From Acidimicrobiales bacterium (GTDB taxonomy: Bacteria; Actinomycetota; Acidimicrobiia; Acidimicrobiales; MedAcidi-G1), in NCBI GenBank assembly GCA_022452145.1, contig JAKURY010000003.1:62001-126000 (forward strand): a stretch of DNA of 64,000 nt. The letters run 5' to 3'. How positions within the stretch are numbered: the first letter of the stretch is position 1; each line of letters starts with the position of its first letter. The notes beneath the pieces were generated by a model, which saw nothing but the letters and a program-made list of their open reading frames with translations, searched no databases and was not told where the DNA came from. A program made the translations under genes and the position numbers. Positions 29,828 to 38,189 of this stretch are shown here, one piece after another.

Positions 29828-30904
29828 TCAGCGGGCCAGGAGGGCGCCGAGGTCGCGCAGGCTCTGGGTTCCGGCCCCGAGCGAGGTGGCGAGGTGCTTG
29901 TTCCAGAGGGTGTAGCGGTGGAGGGGATAGTCGGTGGCCACACCCATACCGCCGTGGCAGTGCTGCGTGGCGTGGGCCACGTCGGTGGCCCGTTCCGAGG
30001 CCCACCACTTGGCCACCAGCAGGTCCTCGGCTGCATCCACCCCGTTGGCAAGGCGCCATGCCGCGGACAGGGTGGCCAGCCGGATCCCGCCCACGTTCAC
30101 GAACTGGTCGGCCAGGCGCTGTCCCACTGCCTGGAAGGTGGCGATGGGGCGACCGAACTGCTGTCGAGTGGAGGTGTATTCGGCGGTGATGGTGAGTGCC
30201 CTTTCGGTCACGCCCAGCTGGGTGGCGCAGACGCCGAGCCTGAGGTGGTCCAGGAGGGCGTCCACGGTCGTCCCGCCACCGAGCAGCTCGGCCGGCGTTC
30301 CGTCGAAGGAGACTTCCCATACAGGTTGTCGACGGGTGGAGGTTCCCTTGAGGAGGCCTATTCCCGATCCGGCGAGGTCCACGAGGACGCAGCGGGGGCC
30401 GTCCGGCGTCGATGTCGTGACCAGTGCCAGCGAGGCTGCGTCGAGATGCTCGACCACCACCTTGGTACCCCGGAGCGTCCCGCCGTCGAAGGCTGTGGAC
30501 GGTTCGGCGAGCCGGTCGTTCAGGAACTCCTGGACGGCGACAGTCAGGACGGTGCGACCGGTGGCCACGTCGGGCAGCAGACGGCTGCGCTGCTCCTCTG
30601 AGCCGTGCCGGTCCACCATGAGGGCCGCCACCGAGGATGGGAGCAGTGGTAGGGGGGCGACGTGCTCCCCCTGGGTCCGTAGCAGCACTGTCAGGGCGAC
30701 CGCGTCCAGGCCACCCCCGCCCACGTCGGTCCCGAGGGCGATGCCGAGGAGGCCGGCCTCGGCAAGGTCCTCCCAGAGGTCCCGGTCGAACCAGTCCCCG
30801 GCCGCCTCGACGGAGGCGTGGCGCTCCATGTCCAGGTGGTCGCCCATGATGCGGTCGGCCAGGTCTGCAACCGCCTGCTGGGCCTCCGTGGGGGTGAAGT
30901 CCAT
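29828..30904 (-). CDS. Acyl-CoA dehydrogenase, third of three in the operon
   Basis: 358-residue flavoprotein of the acyl-CoA dehydrogenase fold. The N-terminal helical region begins MDFTPTEAQQAVADLADRIM. The C-terminal helical domain contains YTSTRQQFGRPIATFQAVGQ, the typical FAD/dimer loop, and the end-of-domain CHGGMGVATDYPLHRY. A canonical catalytic Glu in the FadE position is not obvious, as in many actinobacterial heterodimeric enzymes that pair a catalytic and a non-catalytic subunit with the neighbouring gene. The upstream dehydrogenase gene ends 5 bases before it. Confidence 0.88.
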   Translation of the reverse strand: MDFTPTEAQQAVADLADRIMGDHLDMERHASVEAAGDWFDRDLWEDLAEAGLLGIALGTDVGGGGLDAVALTVLLRTQGEHVAPLPLLPSSVAALMVDRHGSEEQRSRLLPDVATGRTVLTVAVQEFLNDRLAEPSTAFDGGTLRGTKVVVEHLDAASLALVTTSTPDGPRCVLVDLAGSGIGLLKGTSTRRQPVWEVSFDGTPAELLGGGTTVDALLDHLRLGVCATQLGVTERALTITAEYTSTRQQFGRPIATFQAVGQRLADQFVNVGGIRLATLSAAWRLANGVDAAEDLLVAKWWASERATDVAHATQHCHGGMGVATDYPLHRYTLWNKHLATSLGAGTQSLRDLGALLAR

Positions 30905-30909
30905 TGCGG

Positions 30910-32106
30910 CTACCCCCCGTCCGTCCGGCGGCGCTGCTGGCGTGGGAGGCCCAGGCCGGCCATGCCGATGATGTCGCGCTGTACTTCGTTGGTGCCGCCG
31001 CCGAAGGTCAGCACCCAGACGCTGCGGTAGGAGGCTTCCACGGTGTTCAGGATCGACGTGCCCGGCGAACCCTCCTTCAGGTGGCCGGTGGCCCCGATCA
31101 CCTCGGTGATGAGCGTGTAGACCCTGTGCATCGACTCCGAACCGTGGACCTTCACCGCTGAGGAGTCCGCGGGGCCCATGCGGCCGTGGGTGTTCTCGGC
31201 GGCCACATACCAGTTGAGGAGGTCGAGGTGGCGGGCCAGGGCACGGCATTCGGCCAGCTTCACCCGGACCCATTCGTGGTCGATGACTCGTAGGCCGTCG
31301 GCGGCGGTCGTGTCCCTTGCCCAGGACACGGCGTCGTCGGTGATCCTGACCAGGCGTGCCCCGGGAAAGAGGGAGACCCGCTCGTGGTTGAGCTGGTCGG
31401 TGATGAGGCCCCAGCCGGCGTTGACCTCGCCGACCCGCATGGCATCCGGTACCCGGACGTCGTCGTAGAAGGTGGCGGTGGTGTGCGTCTGGCCGAAGGT
31501 CTCGAAGGGCTGGATGGAGAACCCCGGGTCGGTTGTGTCGACGAGGAACATGGTGATGCCCTTATGTGCGGGAGCGTCTGGATCGGTCCGGGCGGCGAGC
31601 CACACGTAGTCGGCGTTGTAGGCGAGGCTGGTGAACAGCTTCTGTCCGTTAACCACCCAGCTGTCGCCGTCCCGGAGCGCTCGGGTTCGCAGCGCGGCCA
31701 GGTCGGTGCCGGCATCGGGTTCCGAGTAGCCGATCGAGAAGTGCATCTCGCCGGCCAGGATCCGCCTCAGAAAGAAGTCCTTCTGCTCGTCGGTGCCGAA
31801 CCTCCGGATGGTCGGCCCGACGGTGTTGGTGGTCAGGAACGGGATGGGACAGCCGGCAGCCTGGGACTCGTCGAAGAAGATGTACTGCTCGATGGGGGTG
31901 AAGCCCCTGCCGCCGTACTCGACCGGCCATCCGACCCCCAGCCAGCCGTCGGACCCGACCTGTCGGATGAGGGCCTTGTAGTCGTGGTTCTCGGCAAACT
32001 CCGCGCTGGAGACACGGCCCTTCACCTCGGGCGTCATCAGGTCGCCGAAATATGCCCTGAGCTCAACCTGCAGGGCCTTCTGGTCGTCGGTGAGGTCGAT
32101 GAACAC
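30910..32106 (-). CDS. Acyl-CoA dehydrogenase, second of three in the operon
   Basis: 398-residue acyl-CoA dehydrogenase. The middle domain carries GYSEPDAGTDLAAL (substrate/FAD loop) and WVVNGQKLFTS. The C-terminal domain has TFGGGTNEVQRDIIGMAGLGLPR, the usual FAD-binding end motif. It starts at a GTG (32106). The length and adjacent shorter paralogue at 29828 suggest an alpha2beta2 FadE-type complex of the kind used on steroid side chains or bulky acyl groups. Confidence 0.9.
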   Translation of the reverse strand: MFIDLTDDQKALQVELRAYFGDLMTPEVKGRVSSAEFAENHDYKALIRQVGSDGWLGVGWPVEYGGRGFTPIEQYIFFDESQAAGCPIPFLTTNTVGPTIRRFGTDEQKDFFLRRILAGEMHFSIGYSEPDAGTDLAALRTRALRDGDSWVVNGQKLFTSLAYNADYVWLAARTDPDAPAHKGITMFLVDTTDPGFSIQPFETFGQTHTTATFYDDVRVPDAMRVGEVNAGWGLITDQLNHERVSLFPGARLVRITDDAVSWARDTTAADGLRVIDHEWVRVKLAECRALARHLDLLNWYVAAENTHGRMGPADSSAVKVHGSESMHRVYTLITEVIGATGHLKEGSPGTSILNTVEASYRSVWVLTFGGGTNEVQRDIIGMAGLGLPRQQRRRTDGG

Positions 32107-32128: not shown

Positions 32129-33382
32129 TCAGTTCCGGGGGATGTCCTGCCAGGCGGCACCCTTGAACGGGTCTGGCTCCCTGGGGAGCCCAAGGACCCG
32201 TTCCCCGATGATGTTGCGCTGCACCTCGTCGGTCCCACCGGCGATGCTCACCCCGGCGGCGCTGATGCAGAAGGCGGACCAGCGTGCCGACGCCGCCGAA
32301 GCCGGATCCCCATCCCCCCAGGCCTGGCCGGCCGTGCCGACGATGGCCATGGCCAGGTCCCGCGAGCGGCGGGCCAGGATGGCCCCGCTGAGCTTGGCTA
32401 TGGAACCCTCAGGGCCCGGTACTCCTCCGGCAGCGACCGTGGCCCGTATGCGCTGGCCGATGTAGTCCTTGATCTCCTCGTGGACGTACAGGTCGGCCAG
32501 GCCCTGGCGGATTACCGGATCGTGGGACCGGCCGAGTTCCCGGGCCAGCATGGTGAGCTCCGGGCATCGCTTCGCGTTCAGGGCGCCACCGCCGGCGCCG
32601 ATCGAGACACGCTCGAACATGAGCATCGAGACCGCCAGGTTCCAGCCCTGGTTCACCTCCCCGAGGAGGTTCCCGGCCGGGATCCGCACGCCGGTGAAGA
32701 AGACCTCGTTGAAGCCACGCGCTCCGGAGATCTGCACGAGCGGTCGGATCTCGACTCCGGACGATCGCAGATCCACGATGAACATGGAGAGGCCCTGGTG
32801 CTTGGGCAGGGTCGGATCGGTCCTGGCCACCACGATCCCGAAGTCGCAGTAGTGGGCTCCCGAGGTCCACACCTTCTGACCGTCCAAGATCCACTCCTCG
32901 CCGTCCCGGACGGCACGGGTGGAGAGCCCGGCCACGTCGGACCCGGCACCCGGTTCGGAGAACATCTGGCACCAGATGGCATCGCCGCGGATGTTGTCCG
33001 CGAGGTAGACGGCCTTCTGCTCCTCGGTGCCGAACTGGGCGAGCATGGGCAGGCACATGCCGTGCGAGATGGACAGGGGAGCGTTCGGTAGCCGGTATCC
33101 GGCCGACACCCTGTCGAACACCTCCTGGTGGCGGCGGGTGAGGCCCGCTCCGCCGAAGATGGCCGGGTATGTCAGGCCGGCCAGGCCGGCATCTGCCAGG
33201 GATCCCTGGAAGGCCCGGGTCCGGAGGAGTGCATCCGCCTCGCCACCCTGGCCGTCACCGTCCTCGCCGGTGGGATCGCTGATCCTCCGGCAGTGTGCGT
33301 CGAGGAACTCCTCAACTCGTGTCGGGAACTCGTCGTCACCGGCGAGCTCGAGGTCTGCACTGTCTCCGGAGACCTGTGCCAT
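32129..33382 (-). CDS. Acyl-CoA dehydrogenase, first of three in the operon
   Basis: 417-residue acyl-CoA dehydrogenase. Motifs are MFSEPGAGSDVAGL, WILDGQKVWTSGA and SIAGGTDEVQRNIIGERVLGLPR. The longer open frame starts at 33436, but a TACCGT box at 33405-33410 and an AGGA close to the ATG at 33382 favour the shorter protein, MAQVSGDSADLEL. It heads the minus-strand operon with two further dehydrogenases, mycothione reductase and an SDR, and is divergent from a truncated SDR. Confidence 0.9.
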   Translation of the reverse strand: MAQVSGDSADLELAGDDEFPTRVEEFLDAHCRRISDPTGEDGDGQGGEADALLRTRAFQGSLADAGLAGLTYPAIFGGAGLTRRHQEVFDRVSAGYRLPNAPLSISHGMCLPMLAQFGTEEQKAVYLADNIRGDAIWCQMFSEPGAGSDVAGLSTRAVRDGEEWILDGQKVWTSGAHYCDFGIVVARTDPTLPKHQGLSMFIVDLRSSGVEIRPLVQISGARGFNEVFFTGVRIPAGNLLGEVNQGWNLAVSMLMFERVSIGAGGGALNAKRCPELTMLARELGRSHDPVIRQGLADLYVHEEIKDYIGQRIRATVAAGGVPGPEGSIAKLSGAILARRSRDLAMAIVGTAGQAWGDGDPASAASARWSAFCISAAGVSIAGGTDEVQRNIIGERVLGLPREPDPFKGAAWQDIPRN

Positions 33383-33404
33383 ATCCTGTCCGCCCACAAC
33401 GGCG

Positions 33405-33410
33405 ACGGTA
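33405..33410 (-). promoter_or_regulatory. Candidate -10 box for the acyl-CoA dehydrogenase operon
   Basis: TACCGT on the minus strand, 22 bases before the ATG at 33382, followed by an AGGA Shine-Dalgarno. It likely drives the five-gene operon down to 27576. Confidence 0.45.
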
Positions 33411-33517
33411 CCGGTCGCCGATCGCGGGCTCGTCATCCGGCCCGGGCATCGCTGGGGCCGCGGGGCGGCTCCGATGACTCACGTCACAAGCTGGCGATGT
33501 CAGGTCGGTGATCCGAC

Positions 33518-33523
33518 TACCGT
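33518..33523 (+). promoter_or_regulatory. Candidate -10 box ahead of the SDR fragment
   Basis: TACCGT ending 7 bases before ATG 33531. Confidence 0.35.
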
Positions 33524-33530
33524 CGGTCCG

Positions 33531-33743
33531 ATGACCCTGGTTGCAGGCAAGGTGGTGATGGTCACGGGAGCGGGGAGTGGCATCGGCCGTGCCGCATCGC
33601 TCCTCTACTCGGCCGAGGGCGCCTCCCATGTGGCCATCGTGGACCGCGACGGGGCGGGGGCCGATGCGACCTTCGATCTGTTGAGGTCGTCGGGCGGCTC
33701 GGGCGTCGTGTACGAGGTCGACGGTGGGGGGATCCTCCGCTGA
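33531..33743 (+). pseudogene. Truncated short-chain dehydrogenase, N-terminal fragment
   Basis: 70 codons that begin exactly like an SDR: VVMVTGAGSGIGRAAS at residues 8-23, then HVAIVDRDGAGADAT, then the frame stops shortly after YEVDGGG, where an intact SDR would continue for about 180 residues through the NNAG and YxxxK motifs. None of those are found downstream before the DUF35 gene. The leader box is retained. It is best read as the 5' remnant of a deleted gene; a functional microprotein is less likely. Confidence 0.72.
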
Positions 33744-33752
33744 GTGGGCTGG

Positions 33753-33803
33753 TGGGCTCCGGATCCCGCTGGGGAACATCGGGCTCCGGGCCCCGCTGGG
33801 AAC
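33753..33803. repeat. Imperfect tandem repeat after the SDR fragment
   Basis: Two near-identical copies of about 24 bases, GGGCTCCGGATCCCGCTGGG and GGGCTCCGGGCCCCGCTGGG, each followed by (G)AAC, at 33753 and 33781 (period 28). They lie directly behind the truncation point and may mark the deletion junction. Confidence 0.75.
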
Positions 33804-33885
33804 CGACGGCTACCACGGCCATAGGATCGGGCGTCACCGGACAGGATCCAGCGACCTGTCCTGGAAGAGGATCCCCGGAGCGTCC

Positions 33886-34341
33886 ATGACAGTGACCACC
33901 AAGCAGCGGGTGCCCGCCATCGAGGGGTTCTTCACGCTCGGCGAAGAACCACACCTGATAGGTGGTCGTATGGTCGATTCCGGCGGCTACTGCTTTCCAC
34001 TCCACCTCGGCGGCGCAGATCCCCACCATCCGGCAGCCGCGGTCGATGAGGTGCTGCTCAGCCGGGTCGGCCGCATCTGGTCCTTCACCAACAGCGCCTA
34101 TCCGCCACCCCCACCGTTCATCCTCACAGAGCCCTACGTGCCGGTGGTGGTGGCCGCCGTCGAGCTGGAGGTGGAGCGGATGGTGGTGCTCGGCCAGGTG
34201 GCCCCCGGATGGACCGTCGAGGACCTGGAGGTGGACATGGAGGTCGAGTTGGTCCTCGGGGTGCTCTACGAGGACGATGAACGCGAGTACCTGACCTGGC
34301 AGTGGCGACCCGTCGGACTGTCGGCCGACGGCCGGGTCTGA
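33886..34341 (+). CDS. DUF35 OB-fold protein, partner of the thiolase-like protein
   Basis: 151-residue protein of the DUF35 (OB-fold acyl-CoA-associated) family, recognised from GFFTLGEEPHLIGGR and the beta-rich PYVPVVVAAVELEVERMVVLGQV. Many members carry a zinc ribbon of four cysteines in the N-terminal part; only one Cys (GGYCFPLH) is present here. DUF35 proteins form complexes with thiolase-fold enzymes and are needed for their activity in steroid side-chain aldolysis. The gene starts 142 bases after the SDR fragment and is followed by its thiolase-like partner at 15 bases. Confidence 0.82.
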   Translation: MTVTTKQRVPAIEGFFTLGEEPHLIGGRMVDSGGYCFPLHLGGADPHHPAAAVDEVLLSRVGRIWSFTNSAYPPPPPFILTEPYVPVVVAAVELEVERMVVLGQVAPGWTVEDLEVDMEVELVLGVLYEDDEREYLTWQWRPVGLSADGRV

Positions 34342-34356
34342 ACGGAGGCGACGCCG

Positions 34357-35544
34357 ATGGATGAGATCGCCGTCCTCGGGGTGGGGATGCACCCGTGGGG
34401 CAAGTGGGGCCGCAACTTCGCGGAATACGGGGTTCACGCCGCCCGCGAGGCCCTGGCCGACGCTGGGGTGGACTGGCGGGACGTGGGCTTCGTGTCCGGT
34501 GCGATCACCGTGCGGTGCGGCTATCCCGGCTATGTCGCCGGCTCAACGTTCGCTAGGGCGCTCGGCTTCACCGGAGCCCAGGTGGCCAGCTCCTATGCGG
34601 CGTGTGCCTCGGGCGCGACCGCTCTGTCGGTCGCCAGGGGCCAGATCCTCTCCGGTGCCTGTGACGTAGCGCTCGTCGTGGGCGCCGACACCACCCCGAA
34701 GGGCTTCCTGGCTCCTGCGGAGGGCGACCGACCGGACGACACGGACTGGCTCCGGTTCCACATGGTGGGGGCCACCAACCCCGTCTACTTCGCGCTCCAC
34801 GCCCGCCGTCGCATGGCCCTCCACGGGGCCACTCCGGAGGACTTCGCCCTGGTGAAGGCCAAGAACAGCCGACACGGCGTCCACAATCCCAACGCCCGCT
34901 ACCCCAAGGAGTACGGGGTCGAGGATGTGGCCAACTCGCCGGTCGTCTCCGACCCGCTGCGCCTGCTGGAGATCTGCGCCACCAGCGACGGCGGCGCGGC
35001 CCTGGTGGTCAGCTCGATGGACTACGCCCGCTCCCGTGGAGCGGGCGACCCGGTGAGGGTGGCGGGGCTGTCGACGGTCACGCCGACCTATCCCGACACC
35101 GTCATCGACCTGCCGTACCTGGCCACCGACTCGGCCGCCGGATCAGAGGCCGCGGAGTTGGGCTTCAAGGAGTCGATCGGCGCCAGGGTCTACGAGGAGG
35201 CCGGCCTGGGTCCGGTGGACGTGGACGTCGCCGAGGTGTACGACCTGTCCTCGGCCCTCGAGCTGGACTGGTACGAGCAGCTCGGGCTCTGTGAGGTGGG
35301 CGGGGCCGAGTCGCTGCTGCGCTCGGGCGCCACGAGCATCGGTGGACGGATTCCCGTGAACCCGAGCGGCGGCTTGGGGGCGTTCGGCGAGGCGGTTCCG
35401 GCCCAGGCCATCGCACAGGTCTGCGAGCTGACCTGGCAGTTGCGGGGACAGGCCGGCCATCGCCAGGTGGAGGGGGCACGGGTGGGCGTGACGGCCAACC
35501 AGGGCCTGTTCGGCCACGGCTCGTCGGTGCTTGTACGCCGCTAG
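34357..35544 (+). CDS. Thiolase-superfamily lipid-transfer protein, probable aldolase or non-canonical thiolase
   Basis: 395-residue thiolase-fold protein. The first half has a Cys in SYAACASGATALS at the position of the nucleophile. The usual GHPxGxxG histidine motif is replaced by NPSGGLGAFGEAVPAQA, and the C-terminal CxGGG motif by TANQGLFGHGSS. This pattern resembles the Ltp/SCP2-thiolase branch, in which DUF35-bound members are retro-aldolases of steroid side chains. The DUF35 gene directly upstream fits such a complex. Whether this protein condenses, cleaves or only binds acyl-CoA is not settled by sequence. Confidence 0.82.
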   Translation: MDEIAVLGVGMHPWGKWGRNFAEYGVHAAREALADAGVDWRDVGFVSGAITVRCGYPGYVAGSTFARALGFTGAQVASSYAACASGATALSVARGQILSGACDVALVVGADTTPKGFLAPAEGDRPDDTDWLRFHMVGATNPVYFALHARRRMALHGATPEDFALVKAKNSRHGVHNPNARYPKEYGVEDVANSPVVSDPLRLLEICATSDGGAALVVSSMDYARSRGAGDPVRVAGLSTVTPTYPDTVIDLPYLATDSAAGSEAAELGFKESIGARVYEEAGLGPVDVDVAEVYDLSSALELDWYEQLGLCEVGGAESLLRSGATSIGGRIPVNPSGGLGAFGEAVPAQAIAQVCELTWQLRGQAGHRQVEGARVGVTANQGLFGHGSSVLVRR

Positions 35545-35560
35545 GAGGACGGAGCGACCC

Positions 35561-36325
35561 ATGGCCCTGCACGAGACGATCGACGATGGCGTGGCGACCA
35601 TCGTCATGGACAATCCGCCTGTGAACGCCCTGGGCATCGCCGACACCTACGCCCTGGCGGATCTCCTGGATGGATACCGGCGTCGCGACGACGTCCGGGC
35701 GGTCGTCCTGACAGCCGAGGGCCGGGGCTTCTGTGCAGGGGTGGACATCGGGGAGATCCAGGCAATGGATGGCCACGAGGGCCTGGTGGAGGCCAACCGT
35801 TCCTGCTTCGAGGCCTTCCGGGCCGTCTACGAGTGTGCGGCTCCGGTGGTGGTGGCCGTGAACGGCTTCTGCCTCGGGAGCGGGATCGGGCTAGCCGGCA
35901 ACGCTGACGTGGTCGTGGCCGTCGAGGGTGCCGGGTTCGGCCTCCCGGAGGTCGACAACGGTGCCCTGGGTGCCGCCACCCACCTGATGCGGCTCGTCCC
36001 CGCCCACCGCGCACGCTGGATGCTCTACAGCTGTGAGCCGGCCACGGCCGAGGAACTCCACGCCTACGGCTCGGTGCTCCGGGTGGTTCCGGAGGACGAC
36101 CTCCGGGATGTGGCCATGGAGCTGGCCGGGGTGATCGCAGCCAAGGATCCGATGGTGGTCCGGGCAGCCAAGGCCTCCCTGAACGGGATCGACCCGGTGG
36201 ACGTCCGTCGCAGCTACCGGTACGAACAGGGCTTCACCTTCGAGCTGAACCTGCTAGGCGCCGGCGACGCTGCACGCGAGGCGTTCCTGCGCGGCGACCG
36301 GGACCGCAGGGCCGCGGCCGACTGA
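35561..36325 (+). CDS. Enoyl-CoA hydratase/isomerase family protein
   Basis: 254-residue crotonase-fold protein. The oxyanion-hole segments are GRGFCAGVDIGEI and NGFCLGSGIGLAGNADVV; EVDNGALGAATHLMRLVP replaces the usual ExxxG(L/I)xP region and places Asp/Asn near where the two catalytic glutamates often lie. An AGGAGG overlaps the stop of the thiolase-like gene and lies 12 bases before the ATG. It likely hydrates or isomerises an intermediate passed between the neighbouring enzymes. Confidence 0.88.
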   Translation: MALHETIDDGVATIVMDNPPVNALGIADTYALADLLDGYRRRDDVRAVVLTAEGRGFCAGVDIGEIQAMDGHEGLVEANRSCFEAFRAVYECAAPVVVAVNGFCLGSGIGLAGNADVVVAVEGAGFGLPEVDNGALGAATHLMRLVPAHRARWMLYSCEPATAEELHAYGSVLRVVPEDDLRDVAMELAGVIAAKDPMVVRAAKASLNGIDPVDVRRSYRYEQGFTFELNLLGAGDAAREAFLRGDRDRRAAAD

Positions 36326-36337
36326 GCAGGCTGAAGC

Positions 36338-37168
36338 GTGTCCGACGCGGCTCTGGTGGTTATGGCCGGCGGCCTCGGGACCCGCTTCGGCGGGGTCAAG
36401 CAGCTGGCCGAGGTGGGCCGGGCCGGCGAGGCGATCCTGGACTTCACGATCCGGGACGCTCTGGCGGCAGGTGTGGTCCGGATCGTGGTCATCGCCCGTT
36501 CCGACATAGACGAGGACCTGAGGCGCCACCTCCGGACCCAGCACGGCAGTGGCCTGGATCTGGAGGTCGTACACCAGGATGCCTTCGGGCCTCCCCGGGC
36601 CCGGCCCTGGGGCACGGGGCACGCTGTGGCTGGAGCGGCCTCGCTGCTGGACGGCCCCGCTGTGATCGTCAACGCGGACGACTACTACGGGGCGACCGGC
36701 GTGGTCCGTGTGGCGGAGGCCGTCGCCTCTACCGGGAGCCGGGCGGTGATGCTGGGTTTTCCCCTGGCAGGAACCTTGCCCGACTCGGGGCGGGTGTCCC
36801 GCGGGGTGTGTCGCCTGGGGGCCGACGGCCTGCTCGAGGGGCTGGTCGAGACGCATGGCATCGGATGGGAAGGCGCCACGATCACCGCGTTGGATCCGTT
36901 CGGCGACCTGGATCCGACGACGCCGGTGTCGATGAACATATGGGGCCTGCCCTTGCATGCCGTGGAGCGCCTCGTCGGGCAGTGGGACGAGTTCCACGCC
37001 GTGAACTCCGCGGACCCCACAGTGGAGTTCCTCCTCCCCGAGGCGTTGGCCGGCCAGCACCGGGAGGGCTCCTTGGACATAGCGGTACTGTCCACCGACG
37101 AGGAGTGGATCGGGTTGACCAACCGCGAGGACCTCGAGGTGGTCCGCGCCGCCTTCGCAGACCTATGA
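36338..37168 (+). CDS. NDP-sugar-type nucleotidyltransferase
   Basis: 276-residue protein with the nucleotidyltransferase signature MAGGLGTRFGGVKQL at the N-terminus and a metal-binding NADDYYG, as in sugar-1-phosphate nucleotidyltransferases. GTG start. Its presence inside a fatty-acid-type operon, between an enoyl-CoA hydratase and an LLM oxidoreductase, is unexpected. It may belong to a cofactor or sugar pathway carried along with the operon. Substrate unknown. Confidence 0.8.
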   Translation: MSDAALVVMAGGLGTRFGGVKQLAEVGRAGEAILDFTIRDALAAGVVRIVVIARSDIDEDLRRHLRTQHGSGLDLEVVHQDAFGPPRARPWGTGHAVAGAASLLDGPAVIVNADDYYGATGVVRVAEAVASTGSRAVMLGFPLAGTLPDSGRVSRGVCRLGADGLLEGLVETHGIGWEGATITALDPFGDLDPTTPVSMNIWGLPLHAVERLVGQWDEFHAVNSADPTVEFLLPEALAGQHREGSLDIAVLSTDEEWIGLTNREDLEVVRAAFADL

Positions 37169-37214: not shown

Positions 37215-38189
37215 GTGTTCTTGCTCCGCTTCGACCTGAGGATCCCACCCTTCGTGGAGGGCCTCACCCCGGTCGCCCAGTACGGGGAGATGCTGGAGAT
37301 GGTCCGATGGGCCGACGATCGGGGCTTCGCCGGGGTGGTCCTGTCAGAGCACCACGGCTGCGAGGACGGTTTCATTAACGCGCCGCTGGCTGTCGCCGGA
37401 GCGGTGCTGGGTGCGACGAGGAACCTGTTCTGCTCGGTGTCGGCCCTCCTGCTGCCGCTCCACGACCCGCTCCGGGTTGCCGAGGACATCGCCGCTCTGG
37501 ACCTCCTGGCACCCGGGCGCCTCAACGTGGTGGTCGGCATCGGTTACCGGGAGGCAGAGTTCGAGATGTTCGGAAGGGACAGGAGCCGTCGGGGGGCCGA
37601 TGCCGAGGCCGGCATCCGGACCATGCTCCGGGCGTGGGAGGGGGAGCCGTTCGAGCTGGACGGCCGTACGGCTTGGGTGACCCCTAAGCCGGCGTCGGAT
37701 CCCCGCTCCCTGCTGGCCGTCGGGGGCTCGGTGGTGGCATCGGCTCGACGCGCCGCCCGGTTGCACCTCCCCTTCATCCCGGCCGTAGAGGACCGGGAAC
37801 TCCTCGACGCCTACCTCCTGGAATCTGAGGCCTGCGGGCACGGCTCGCCGTTCTGCATGATGCCGAGCGGGGCCGGGCTGGTCATGGTCACGCGGGACCC
37901 CGATGCCCTGTGGGACCGGATAGGCCCCAACCTCCTGTACGACGCCCTTTCCTATGCCTCGTGGCAGTATCCGGACCAGCGGACGAGTTGGAAGGTGGAG
38001 GCCGACGACGTGGAGCAACTTCGGGCGGGCGGCCAGCACCTCATCGTGACTCCGGAGGAGTGTGTGGACCTGGTGTGTGCCGGAGGCGCCGTCGTCCTCC
38101 ACCCGTTGTGCGGTGGCATAGATCCGGCCGTCGGATGGGAGTCCCTGCACCTGGTGGTCGACGAGGTCATGCCGGCGTTGGCCGGATGA
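37215..38189 (+). CDS. LLM class flavin- or F420-dependent oxidoreductase
   Basis: 324-residue luciferase-like TIM-barrel protein. Family features are [16 protein letters not shown], the [19 protein letters not shown] helix, and [29 protein letters not shown] start with GGGAGG about 8 bases upstream. It could use F420 or FMN; no F420 biosynthesis genes are in the window. Its stop overlaps the next open frame (ATGA), although the better Shine-Dalgarno for the next gene lies slightly further on. Confidence 0.87.

Follow-up and report, generated by a model that had tools for sequence, protein, structure and literature searches.

A DUF35 and thiolase-fold protein pair of the PRK06059 type from Acidimicrobiales as a candidate carbon-carbon lyase of late steroid catabolism

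We analyzed a pair of adjacent genes in a 64,000-nucleotide stretch of DNA, the window, from an Acidimicrobiales bacterium (assembly GCA_022452145.1, contig JAKURY010000003.1, positions 62,001 to 126,000). The genes encode a DUF35 protein and a thiolase-like protein, both on the + strand, with 15 bp between the first and the second. An earlier note on this DNA, made from its letters alone, had read the two open reading frames as such a pair, and the coordinates and Pfam agree with it. The genome (G000) is 2.08 Mb in size and 95% complete, and its closest named relatives are metagenome-assembled genomes labelled Acidimicrobiales or Acidimicrobiaceae. The two genes, and the codons at the positions where thiolases and related aldolases carry catalytic residues, are as follows.

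33886-34341, + strand: DUF35/OB-fold partner, 151 aa, without zinc-ribbon cysteines (Pfam OB_ChsH2_C; AlphaFold2 (AF2) model).
34357-35544, + strand: thiolase-fold candidate carbon-carbon (C-C) lyase, 395 aa, PRK06059 family (NF004715 score; AF2 model).
34603-34605, + strand: codon of Cys83, at the thiolase nucleophile position, which is Gly in Ltp2 (73-sequence alignment, motif panel).
35239-35247, + strand: codons of Tyr295-Asp296-Leu297, at the place of HDC in SCP2 thiolases and of Y294-D-H in TcLtp2 (alignments, motif panel).
35386-35394, + strand: codons of Gly344-Glu345-Ala346, at the place of GHP in thiolases and of GEA in TcLtp2 (73-sequence alignment, motif panel).

The pair belongs to a family that is already catalogued. 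In Pfam, the DUF35 protein matched OB_ChsH2_C (28.5 bits, cut-off 27.1), and the thiolase-like protein matched Thiolase_C_1 (107 bits) and Thiolase_N (28.6 bits, cut-off 26.4). The latter also scored 676.8 bits against the NCBIfam model NF004715/PRK06059, a "lipid-transfer protein", for which the curated equivalog cut-off is 424. It stayed below the cut-offs of the related models PRK08256 (252.3 bits against 436), PRK08313 (134.3 against 514) and PRK07937 (35.1 against 419). Membership in Ltp2 was rejected on the score for PRK07855 (137.6 bits, cut-off 469), on the alignment with TcLtp2 and on the motif panel. PRK07855 is the Ltp2 model, since the best PDB match of one of its members is 6ok1; the Ltp names used for the remaining models are presumed. 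No enzymatic function for PRK06059, or for its likely Mycobacterium tuberculosis counterparts Rv1627c and Rv1628c, was found in the literature searched; subscription journals may hold an assignment. In one scan of viral contigs with a single protein, no relative was found.

The earlier note had described a protein that keeps a Cys in its first half and lacks the GHP histidine and the other standard thiolase residues. This description holds: Cys83 is present, GEA replaces GHP, YDL replaces HDC and NQGLFGHGS lies near the C-terminus. We aligned 73 PRK06059 sequences, leaving out 8 near-duplicates of the 80 loci collected for the family. C83, Y295, D296, L297, E345 and H387 were invariant in all 73, and GEA and YDL occupied the places of GHP and HDC in every one. 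Because this unusual residue set is invariant in 73 sequences from at least four phyla, it is not a product of chance. Membership in the SCP2-type thiolases was rejected, since the HDC and GHP motifs were gone in 73 of 73 sequences, Cys83 being present.

The residues were then compared in a panel of 49 rows: TcLtp2, 38 members of the superfamily from 13 genomes and another ten PRK06059 rows. The PRK06059 rows read C83, Y295-D-L, GEA(V or I)P and, at the C-terminus, GHGS or a near variant. Thiolase-like rows showed C, HDC (some HDA or HDF) and GHP, with Ser for Cys in one of them, and PRK08313-type rows showed no Cys, YVPF and SNP. Ltp2 rows showed G, YDH and GEAY, the exception being a divergent Spongiibacter protein with YDA and SEVY. 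Published work assigns catalysis in Ltp2 of T. curvata (TcLtp2) to Tyr294 as base and Tyr344 as acid, and in the bile-acid aldolase Sal of C. testosteroni (CtSal) to Tyr302 and to Cys304 of YDCY; the same study equates Tyr302 with TcLtp2 Tyr294 and places Gly at the Cys83-equivalent position of Sal (PMC12329534). By chain numbering, Y294 of TcLtp2 falls in YDHF and Y344 in GEAY, and Tyr295 of our YDLS aligns with the base Tyr294. As judged by alignment, the pair thus appears to keep the Tyr of both aldolases, the GEA of Ltp2 and the Cys position of thiolases, without the second catalytic residue of either aldolase. In sequence, none of the DUF35-linked classes in the comparison (Ltp2, PRK08313 and the thiolases) has this residue set. 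The note's view that the motif is unlike that of Ltp2 therefore needs dividing: the GEA of GEAVPA is common to TcLtp2 (GEA-Y344), while the retained Cys, L297 in place of His296 and V347 in place of Tyr344 do set the protein apart.

A tree was built from 47 rows after removal of a fragment and of a duplicate cut off by the end of its contig; Sal and TbSLP were in neither panel nor tree. PRK06059 formed one clade (support 98/99), apart from Ltp2 (98/92) and PRK08313 (100/100), which bears out the suggestion that the pair represents a separate class. The deep branching order was unresolved, and some branches were long. A further thiolase-fold clade (L156, L171, L172, L173 and L033), also apart from PRK06059, was observed with C, QD(T or S) and GEP, without the thiolase histidines, at a support of 100/100.

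The partner protein was examined in the same manner. In 78 of the 80 named loci the thiolase-like gene is directly preceded by a DUF35 gene; only L093 and L095 have other genes there, with a SnoaL-like gene (by eye) downstream and IpdA/B-type genes nearby. The window DUF35 protein has C36 as its single Cys and no Cys at any of the four ribbon columns, as the earlier note had said in describing one Cys and no zinc ribbon. Among 63 aligned DUF35 proteins (that of the window and 62 of the 78; 16 were left out), 27 had all four ribbon Cys, 32 including the window's had none and four had one. The zinc site was absent from every one of the 18 DUF35 proteins recovered from the 20 loci of the window's own family (f1). 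Since 32 of 63 are without it, the absent site signalled by the single Cys is common to many conserved pairs and no peculiarity of this genome. On the partner-protein tree, at least three changes of the zinc label are seen, and well-supported branches force at least two. Repeated loss is the simplest reading of these changes, the count of which does not separate loss from gain.

AF2 models of the single chains were of good predicted quality for the thiolase-like protein (pLDDT 87.5, pTM 0.91) and for DUF35 (pLDDT 90.1, pTM 0.82). The closest folds to the thiolase-like model were BbsB (Z 51.6), the thiolase of an archaeal HMG-CoA synthase complex (50.9) and SCP2 thiolase (50.4), with Ltp2 (6ok1, Z 45.8) and CtSal (Z 42.7) lower. 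The best PDB matches of the DUF35 model were BbsA, the DUF35 of the archaeal complex 6esq and the ChsH2-DUF35 of 6ok1. As these are subunits of complexes with thiolase-fold proteins, a complex of the window pair is likely on prediction. The pair also has the build of the Ltp2-DUF35 complexes to which the earlier note had likened it, and of Sal. It is a DUF35 and thiolase-fold pair with non-thiolase residues at two catalytic positions and a Tyr at the place of the catalytic Tyr of Ltp2 and Sal.

The genes around the pair in the window include the following.

35561-36325, + strand: EchA20-type crotonase of the ring D hydrolase family (NF005925/PRK07938, 352 bits, cut-off 260).
32129-33436, - strand: acyl-CoA (coenzyme A) dehydrogenase FadE_a, divergent from the pair (Pfam Acyl-CoA_dh domains; start codon uncertain).
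30910-32106, - strand: acyl-CoA dehydrogenase FadE_b (PDB search: 4x28_A 435 bits, Tcur3483 382 bits).
29828-30907, - strand: acyl-CoA dehydrogenase FadE_c, a partner-type subunit (PDB search: Tcur3481 261 bits, 4x28_D 176 bits).

The EchA20-type gene lies directly downstream of the pair and is 66% identical to the copy in L102. In that locus one row holds IpdA-type (CoA_trans), IpdB-type and IpdC-type (FabK/NMO-like) genes, the DUF35-Ltp pair, an EchA20-type gene, a CoA ligase, two acyl-CoA dehydrogenases and a FadA6-type thiolase. IpdB was named by position only, and the other Ipd and Fad names by family matches, by gene order and by the table of genes in Crowe et al. (PMC5380842). The synteny in L102 leads us to infer that PRK07938 is EchA20. 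The 80 loci span Actinomycetota, Pseudomonadota, Myxococcota and Acidobacteriota, and their flanks hold genes of the EchA20 type in 34, IpdC type in 23, IpdA type in 22, IpdB type in 22 and FadA6 type in 16, and a HIP-cluster FadE in 19. At least one of the ring-C/D and HIP genes (IpdA/B/C, FadA6 or HIP-cluster FadE) was present in 30 of 80. In the window's own genome, the IpdA/B/C-type genes are on another contig (C1). The steroid-type pathway setting anticipated from the neighbouring genes is borne out, the pair being linked to steroid-catabolism genes.

Several other features were observed at these loci. Upstream of the pair, at 33531-33743 (+), lies a truncated short-chain dehydrogenase (SDR), in which a normal SDR N-terminus runs for about 64 residues and is followed by a short tail and a stop; SDR-like stretches upstream of the pair also occur in L050 and L052 (48-49% over 61-64 residues), and no match was found at the matching place in the near relative L046. 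A nucleotidyltransferase-like protein (36338-37168, +) adjoins the EchA20-type gene; it shows GGLGTRFGG near its start (by eye), had no Pfam match at 1e-10 and has matches in 13 of 80 loci. Further downstream is a luciferase-like (LLM) flavin oxidoreductase (37215-38189, +), with matches in 11 of 80, for which Rv3520c beside the Ltp4/Ltp3 genes is presumably a parallel. There is a weak Thiolase_C_1 match on contig C4 of the same genome. The set of DUF35, Ltp and EchA20-type genes is also present in Candidatus Hopanoidivorans cymbastelae (L075, 7414-10481); that name suggests hopanoid degradation, and the substrate range may therefore exceed sterols. A literature search on hopanoid degraders ("Hopanoidivorans") found nothing. 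In published clusters, the lipid-transfer protein of the edc (estrogen) cluster, known by gene context, lies with chsH2-like and early estrogen genes (PMC7793797), and a "lipid-transfer protein" stands in the C/D-ring row of a table whose columns are not alignable (PMC12507874).

The distribution of the family was compared with that of IpdA and Ltp2. The first sample consisted of 149 Actinomycetota genomes of 90% completeness or more; in it, PRK06059 (E <= 1e-100) and IpdA (E <= 1e-60) were present in the same 15 genomes from 10 genera with no discordance (Fisher p 7e-21, relatedness uncorrected). Ltp2 exceeded its cut-off in 13 genomes, all among these 15; it was missing from G000 and G121, and G000 had no Ltp2 match at E <= 1e-100. 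G192, a genome with neither PRK06059 nor IpdA, had an Ltp2 match under the cut-off (349.6 bits). Among 41 relatives, 25 had both PRK06059 and IpdA, 11 had neither, four had IpdA only and one had PRK06059 only; here an ortholog was defined by at least 69% identity (26 genomes), and some match at 1e-30 was found in 35. The one genome taken from each of the other 16 families gave six with both, two with IpdA only and eight with neither (p 0.007). Gammaproteobacteria, the class of G045, were represented by 274 genomes, of which five had IpdA and two had PRK06059, both within the five. Of 61 genomes from the order of Nocardia alba, seven had PRK06059 at E <= 1e-100.

Regulatory sequences were examined as well. 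In 8 of 77 loci (all four Nocardia, both Nocardioides, L059 and L104), the 150 bp before DUF35 contain a KstR core, taken as a match to at least 12 of 14 positions of TAGAACNNGTTCTA. The count leaves out L093, L095 and also L101, in which the contig ends inside the DUF35 gene. Over the whole set of loci, 31 such matches, the eight included, occur in 1.12 Mb, and by arithmetic about 0.3 would be expected in the tested stretches. Because of these cores upstream of DUF35, the pair is tied to cholesterol regulation in actinobacteria. The mycobacterial-type loci L145-L148 had no core at 12 of 14 or better. At 10 of 14, the scan recovered the published box in L145, a match of 11 in L147, one weak and unlike match in L148 and none in L146.

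The mycobacterial-type loci link the pair to M. tuberculosis. In L145, from a 5.1-Mb genome, the order is a PdtaR-like regulator, Ltp (-), DUF35 (-) and polA (+), and polA- and PdtaR-like genes flank the pair in L146 as well (both from translations, by eye). Rv1629 is presumably polA. The L145 and window thiolase-like proteins are 69% identical and carry the same residues at the catalytic positions. The intergenic region of L145 holds ACTGAAACGTGTTGCAGTT, which agrees with bases 1 to 19 of the 20-base KstR motif listed for Rv1628c/Rv1629. Kendall et al. list this motif with the electrophoretic mobility shift assay "not determined" (PMC1995591), and Rv1626/pdtaR and Rv1627c are neighbours of Rv1625c (PMC8856561). 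We infer that the window pair is orthologous to Rv1627c-Rv1628c; the probable identity with Rv1627c is drawn from the synteny and the KstR box in L145. This likely counterpart is predicted to be necessary for growth on cholesterol, Rv1627c is among the genes changed in a VapC12 study (PMC7771538), and it was increased in intraphagosomal bacilli (PMC6254974).

We propose that the pair works late in steroid catabolism as a C-C lyase on CoA thioesters, by a retro-aldol type of reaction through Tyr295. For pathway and chemistry together we put the probability at roughly 0.45; membership in steroid catabolism and the company of ring-C/D genes are much surer than the chemistry. The enzyme would cleave a C-C bond in a CoA thioester at or after the opening of rings D and C. 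Its two proteins would form a complex like Ltp2-ChsH2(DUF35), Sal-Shy(DUF35) and BbsAB, Tyr295 would serve as general base on a beta-hydroxyacyl-CoA, and Cys83 or Glu345 may take the place of TcLtp2 Tyr344. The substrate would be a small acyl-CoA of the HIP pathway, most likely hydrated delta2-MOODA-CoA. What becomes of delta2-MOODA-CoA is "unclear" according to Crowe et al. (PMC5380842), and the HIP enoyl-CoA hydratase of RHA1 is listed as unknown in a review table (PMC8399759). A C-C lyase that tracks IpdA would fit one of these gaps. The retro-aldolase idea of the earlier note is partly supported. Its version as a side-chain aldolase of the Ltp2 kind that releases propionyl-CoA is not supported, as the linked genes point to ring C/D catabolism, 13 of the 15 PRK06059-bearing genomes of one sample have a separate Ltp2 and the acid Tyr344 of TcLtp2 is Val here.

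Several observations weigh against the proposed lyase. On the chemical side, Val347, after the common GEA, aligns by sequence with the catalytic acid Tyr344 of TcLtp2, and the third YDx residue, the catalytic Cys304 in Sal (placed by its published motif, unaligned), is Leu297. Cys83 is invariant here and Gly in Ltp2 and, in the published description, in Sal (PMC12329534); an aldolase working by acid-base catalysis alone would have no use for it, which argues against a simple copy of the Ltp2 or Sal mechanism. PRK06059 and Ltp2 are not joined in the 47-row tree, and the nearest folds, above Ltp2 and Sal, are the thiolases BbsAB and SCP2. On the pathway side, IpdA occurred without PRK06059 in 4 of 29 relatives (G001, G013, G028 and G032), one relative (G018) had PRK06059 without IpdA, and three of the five IpdA-bearing Gammaproteobacteria lacked PRK06059; some bacteria therefore manage ring C/D without it. 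The genomes compared are related to each other, and since co-occurrence covered only IpdA and Ltp2, the pair could be tied to steroid catabolism in general. The neighbourhood counts used identity thresholds that we set ourselves and flanks no longer than 8 kb, without a control gene, and 50 of 80 loci have none of IpdA/B/C, FadA6 and HIP-cluster FadE within the flank. FadE_b and FadE_c match the steroid acyl-CoA dehydrogenases 4x28 and Tcur3481/3483, of the side-chain type, and the same linkage is seen in two Spongiibacter loci. We take 4x28 to be FadE26-FadE27, and assume that these dehydrogenases act on the steroid side chain. The boxes seen at other loci are of the KstR type, and KstR governs side-chain and A/B-ring genes rather than those of ring C/D; in the window, positions 33300-34400 hold no KstR core of 10 of 14 or better.

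Some of these points would suit other enzymes. A Cys83-dependent thiolase or retro-Claisen enzyme, acting on an alpha-methyl-branched beta-ketoacyl-CoA with Tyr295 and Glu345 in place of the usual His and Cys, is less likely in our estimate, yet it is the main rival and a serious one. Cys83 would take the acyl group, for example in converting 2-methyl-beta-ketoadipyl-CoA to succinyl-CoA and propionyl-CoA, and exactly such a cleavage was proposed by analogy in Crowe et al., where no enzyme is named in the passage concerned (PMC5380842). The invariance of Cys83 in 73 sequences, the BbsAB and SCP2 thiolases as nearest folds and the best match of DUF35 to BbsA all favor it. However, the changes of GHP to GEA and of HDC to YDL in all 73 speak against a thiolase, and 16 of 80 loci have a FadA6-type thiolase next to the pair that could do the step. 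An aldolase that acts on the sterol C17 side chain like Ltp2 or Sal, and replaces Ltp2 in this genus, would account for the KstR-type boxes, the resemblance of FadE_b and FadE_c to side-chain dehydrogenases, the Tyr base position and GEA common to Ltp2, and the lack of an Ltp2 match in G000 at E <= 1e-100. We nevertheless regard it as improbable, as Ltp2 and PRK06059 occur together in 13 of 15 PRK06059-bearing genomes of one sample, IpdA tracks PRK06059 without exception among the 149 genomes and the genomic linkage is to the IpdA/B/C, EchA20 and FadA6 types.

An enzyme of the Ltp3/Ltp4 type for C24-branched sterol side chains would share the "lipid-transfer protein" annotation and DUF35 partners, but it is very hard to reconcile with contig C28 of the same genome, which has a separate PRK08313 and PRK07937 pair with two DUF35 genes (L039, L042 and L151), and with PRK08313 as a separate clade with no Cys and with YVPF and SNP motifs. 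The identity with Ltp3 suggested by annotation and neighbours was rejected on account of that separate pair. PRK08313 and PRK07937 are presumably Ltp3 and Ltp4. We likewise give almost no credence to a catalytically inert scaffold or a non-enzymatic lipid carrier, which the family name and the loss of several thiolase catalytic residues would suggest, given that other active-site positions are invariant across phyla.

A broader form of the proposed retro-aldol lyase is held more tentatively than the proposal itself. Among DUF35-dependent C-C lyases the pair may represent a third class by mechanism, its Cys-Tyr-Glu site differing from those of thiolases, Ltp2 and Sal, and it may carry out the unassigned cleavage that follows MOODA-CoA in ring C/D catabolism in several phyla, M. 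tuberculosis (Rv1627c-Rv1628c) included. If this is true, a thiolase active site can be remodelled in a third manner while the DUF35 partner stays the same, and the DUF35 zinc site is dispensable. The last C-C cuts of steroid breakdown are without an assigned enzyme in the actinobacterial pathway as described by Crowe et al. (PMC5380842). The conserved pair is a concrete candidate for them because it occurs in the same 15 of 149 genomes as IpdA and its counterpart is predicted to be necessary for growth on cholesterol.

Among known systems, the PRK06059/Rv1627c type is the closest, with the same family by score, the same DUF35-Ltp pair and, in the mycobacterial-type locus, the same residues at the catalytic positions; the window differs in that its DUF35 lacks the zinc Cys and its pair adjoins an EchA20-type gene instead of PdtaR and polA. 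Ltp2-ChsH2(DUF35) of T. curvata (6ok1) shares the fold, the DUF35 partner, a Tyr at the position of the HDC His and GEA for GHP; it has Gly, His296 and Tyr344 where the window has Cys83, Leu297 and Val347, and it forms a separate clade. The bile-acid aldolase Sal-Shy(DUF35) of C. testosteroni (9myr) is alike in fold, DUF35 partner and a Tyr-Asp motif at the equivalent place, whereas it has Cys304 in place of Leu297 and Gly at the Cys83 position (PMC12329534; outside the sequence panel). Benzoylsuccinyl-CoA thiolase BbsAB (7pyt) has a DUF35 partner and gives the nearest fold match to each of the two proteins (Z 51.6 for the thiolase-like one, E 9e-8 for DUF35), but identity is 30% over the aligned part and the window protein scored 177.5 bits on the BbsB model, for which the cut-off is 750. 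SCP2/SCP-x thiolases (6hrv) share the fold and the position of the nucleophile Cys, whereas their HDC and GHP motifs are missing in the window protein. The Ltp3/Ltp4-type proteins (PRK08313 and PRK07937) resemble it in superfamily, DUF35 partners and steroid setting, while belonging to another clade with other motifs and having separate copies in the same genome.

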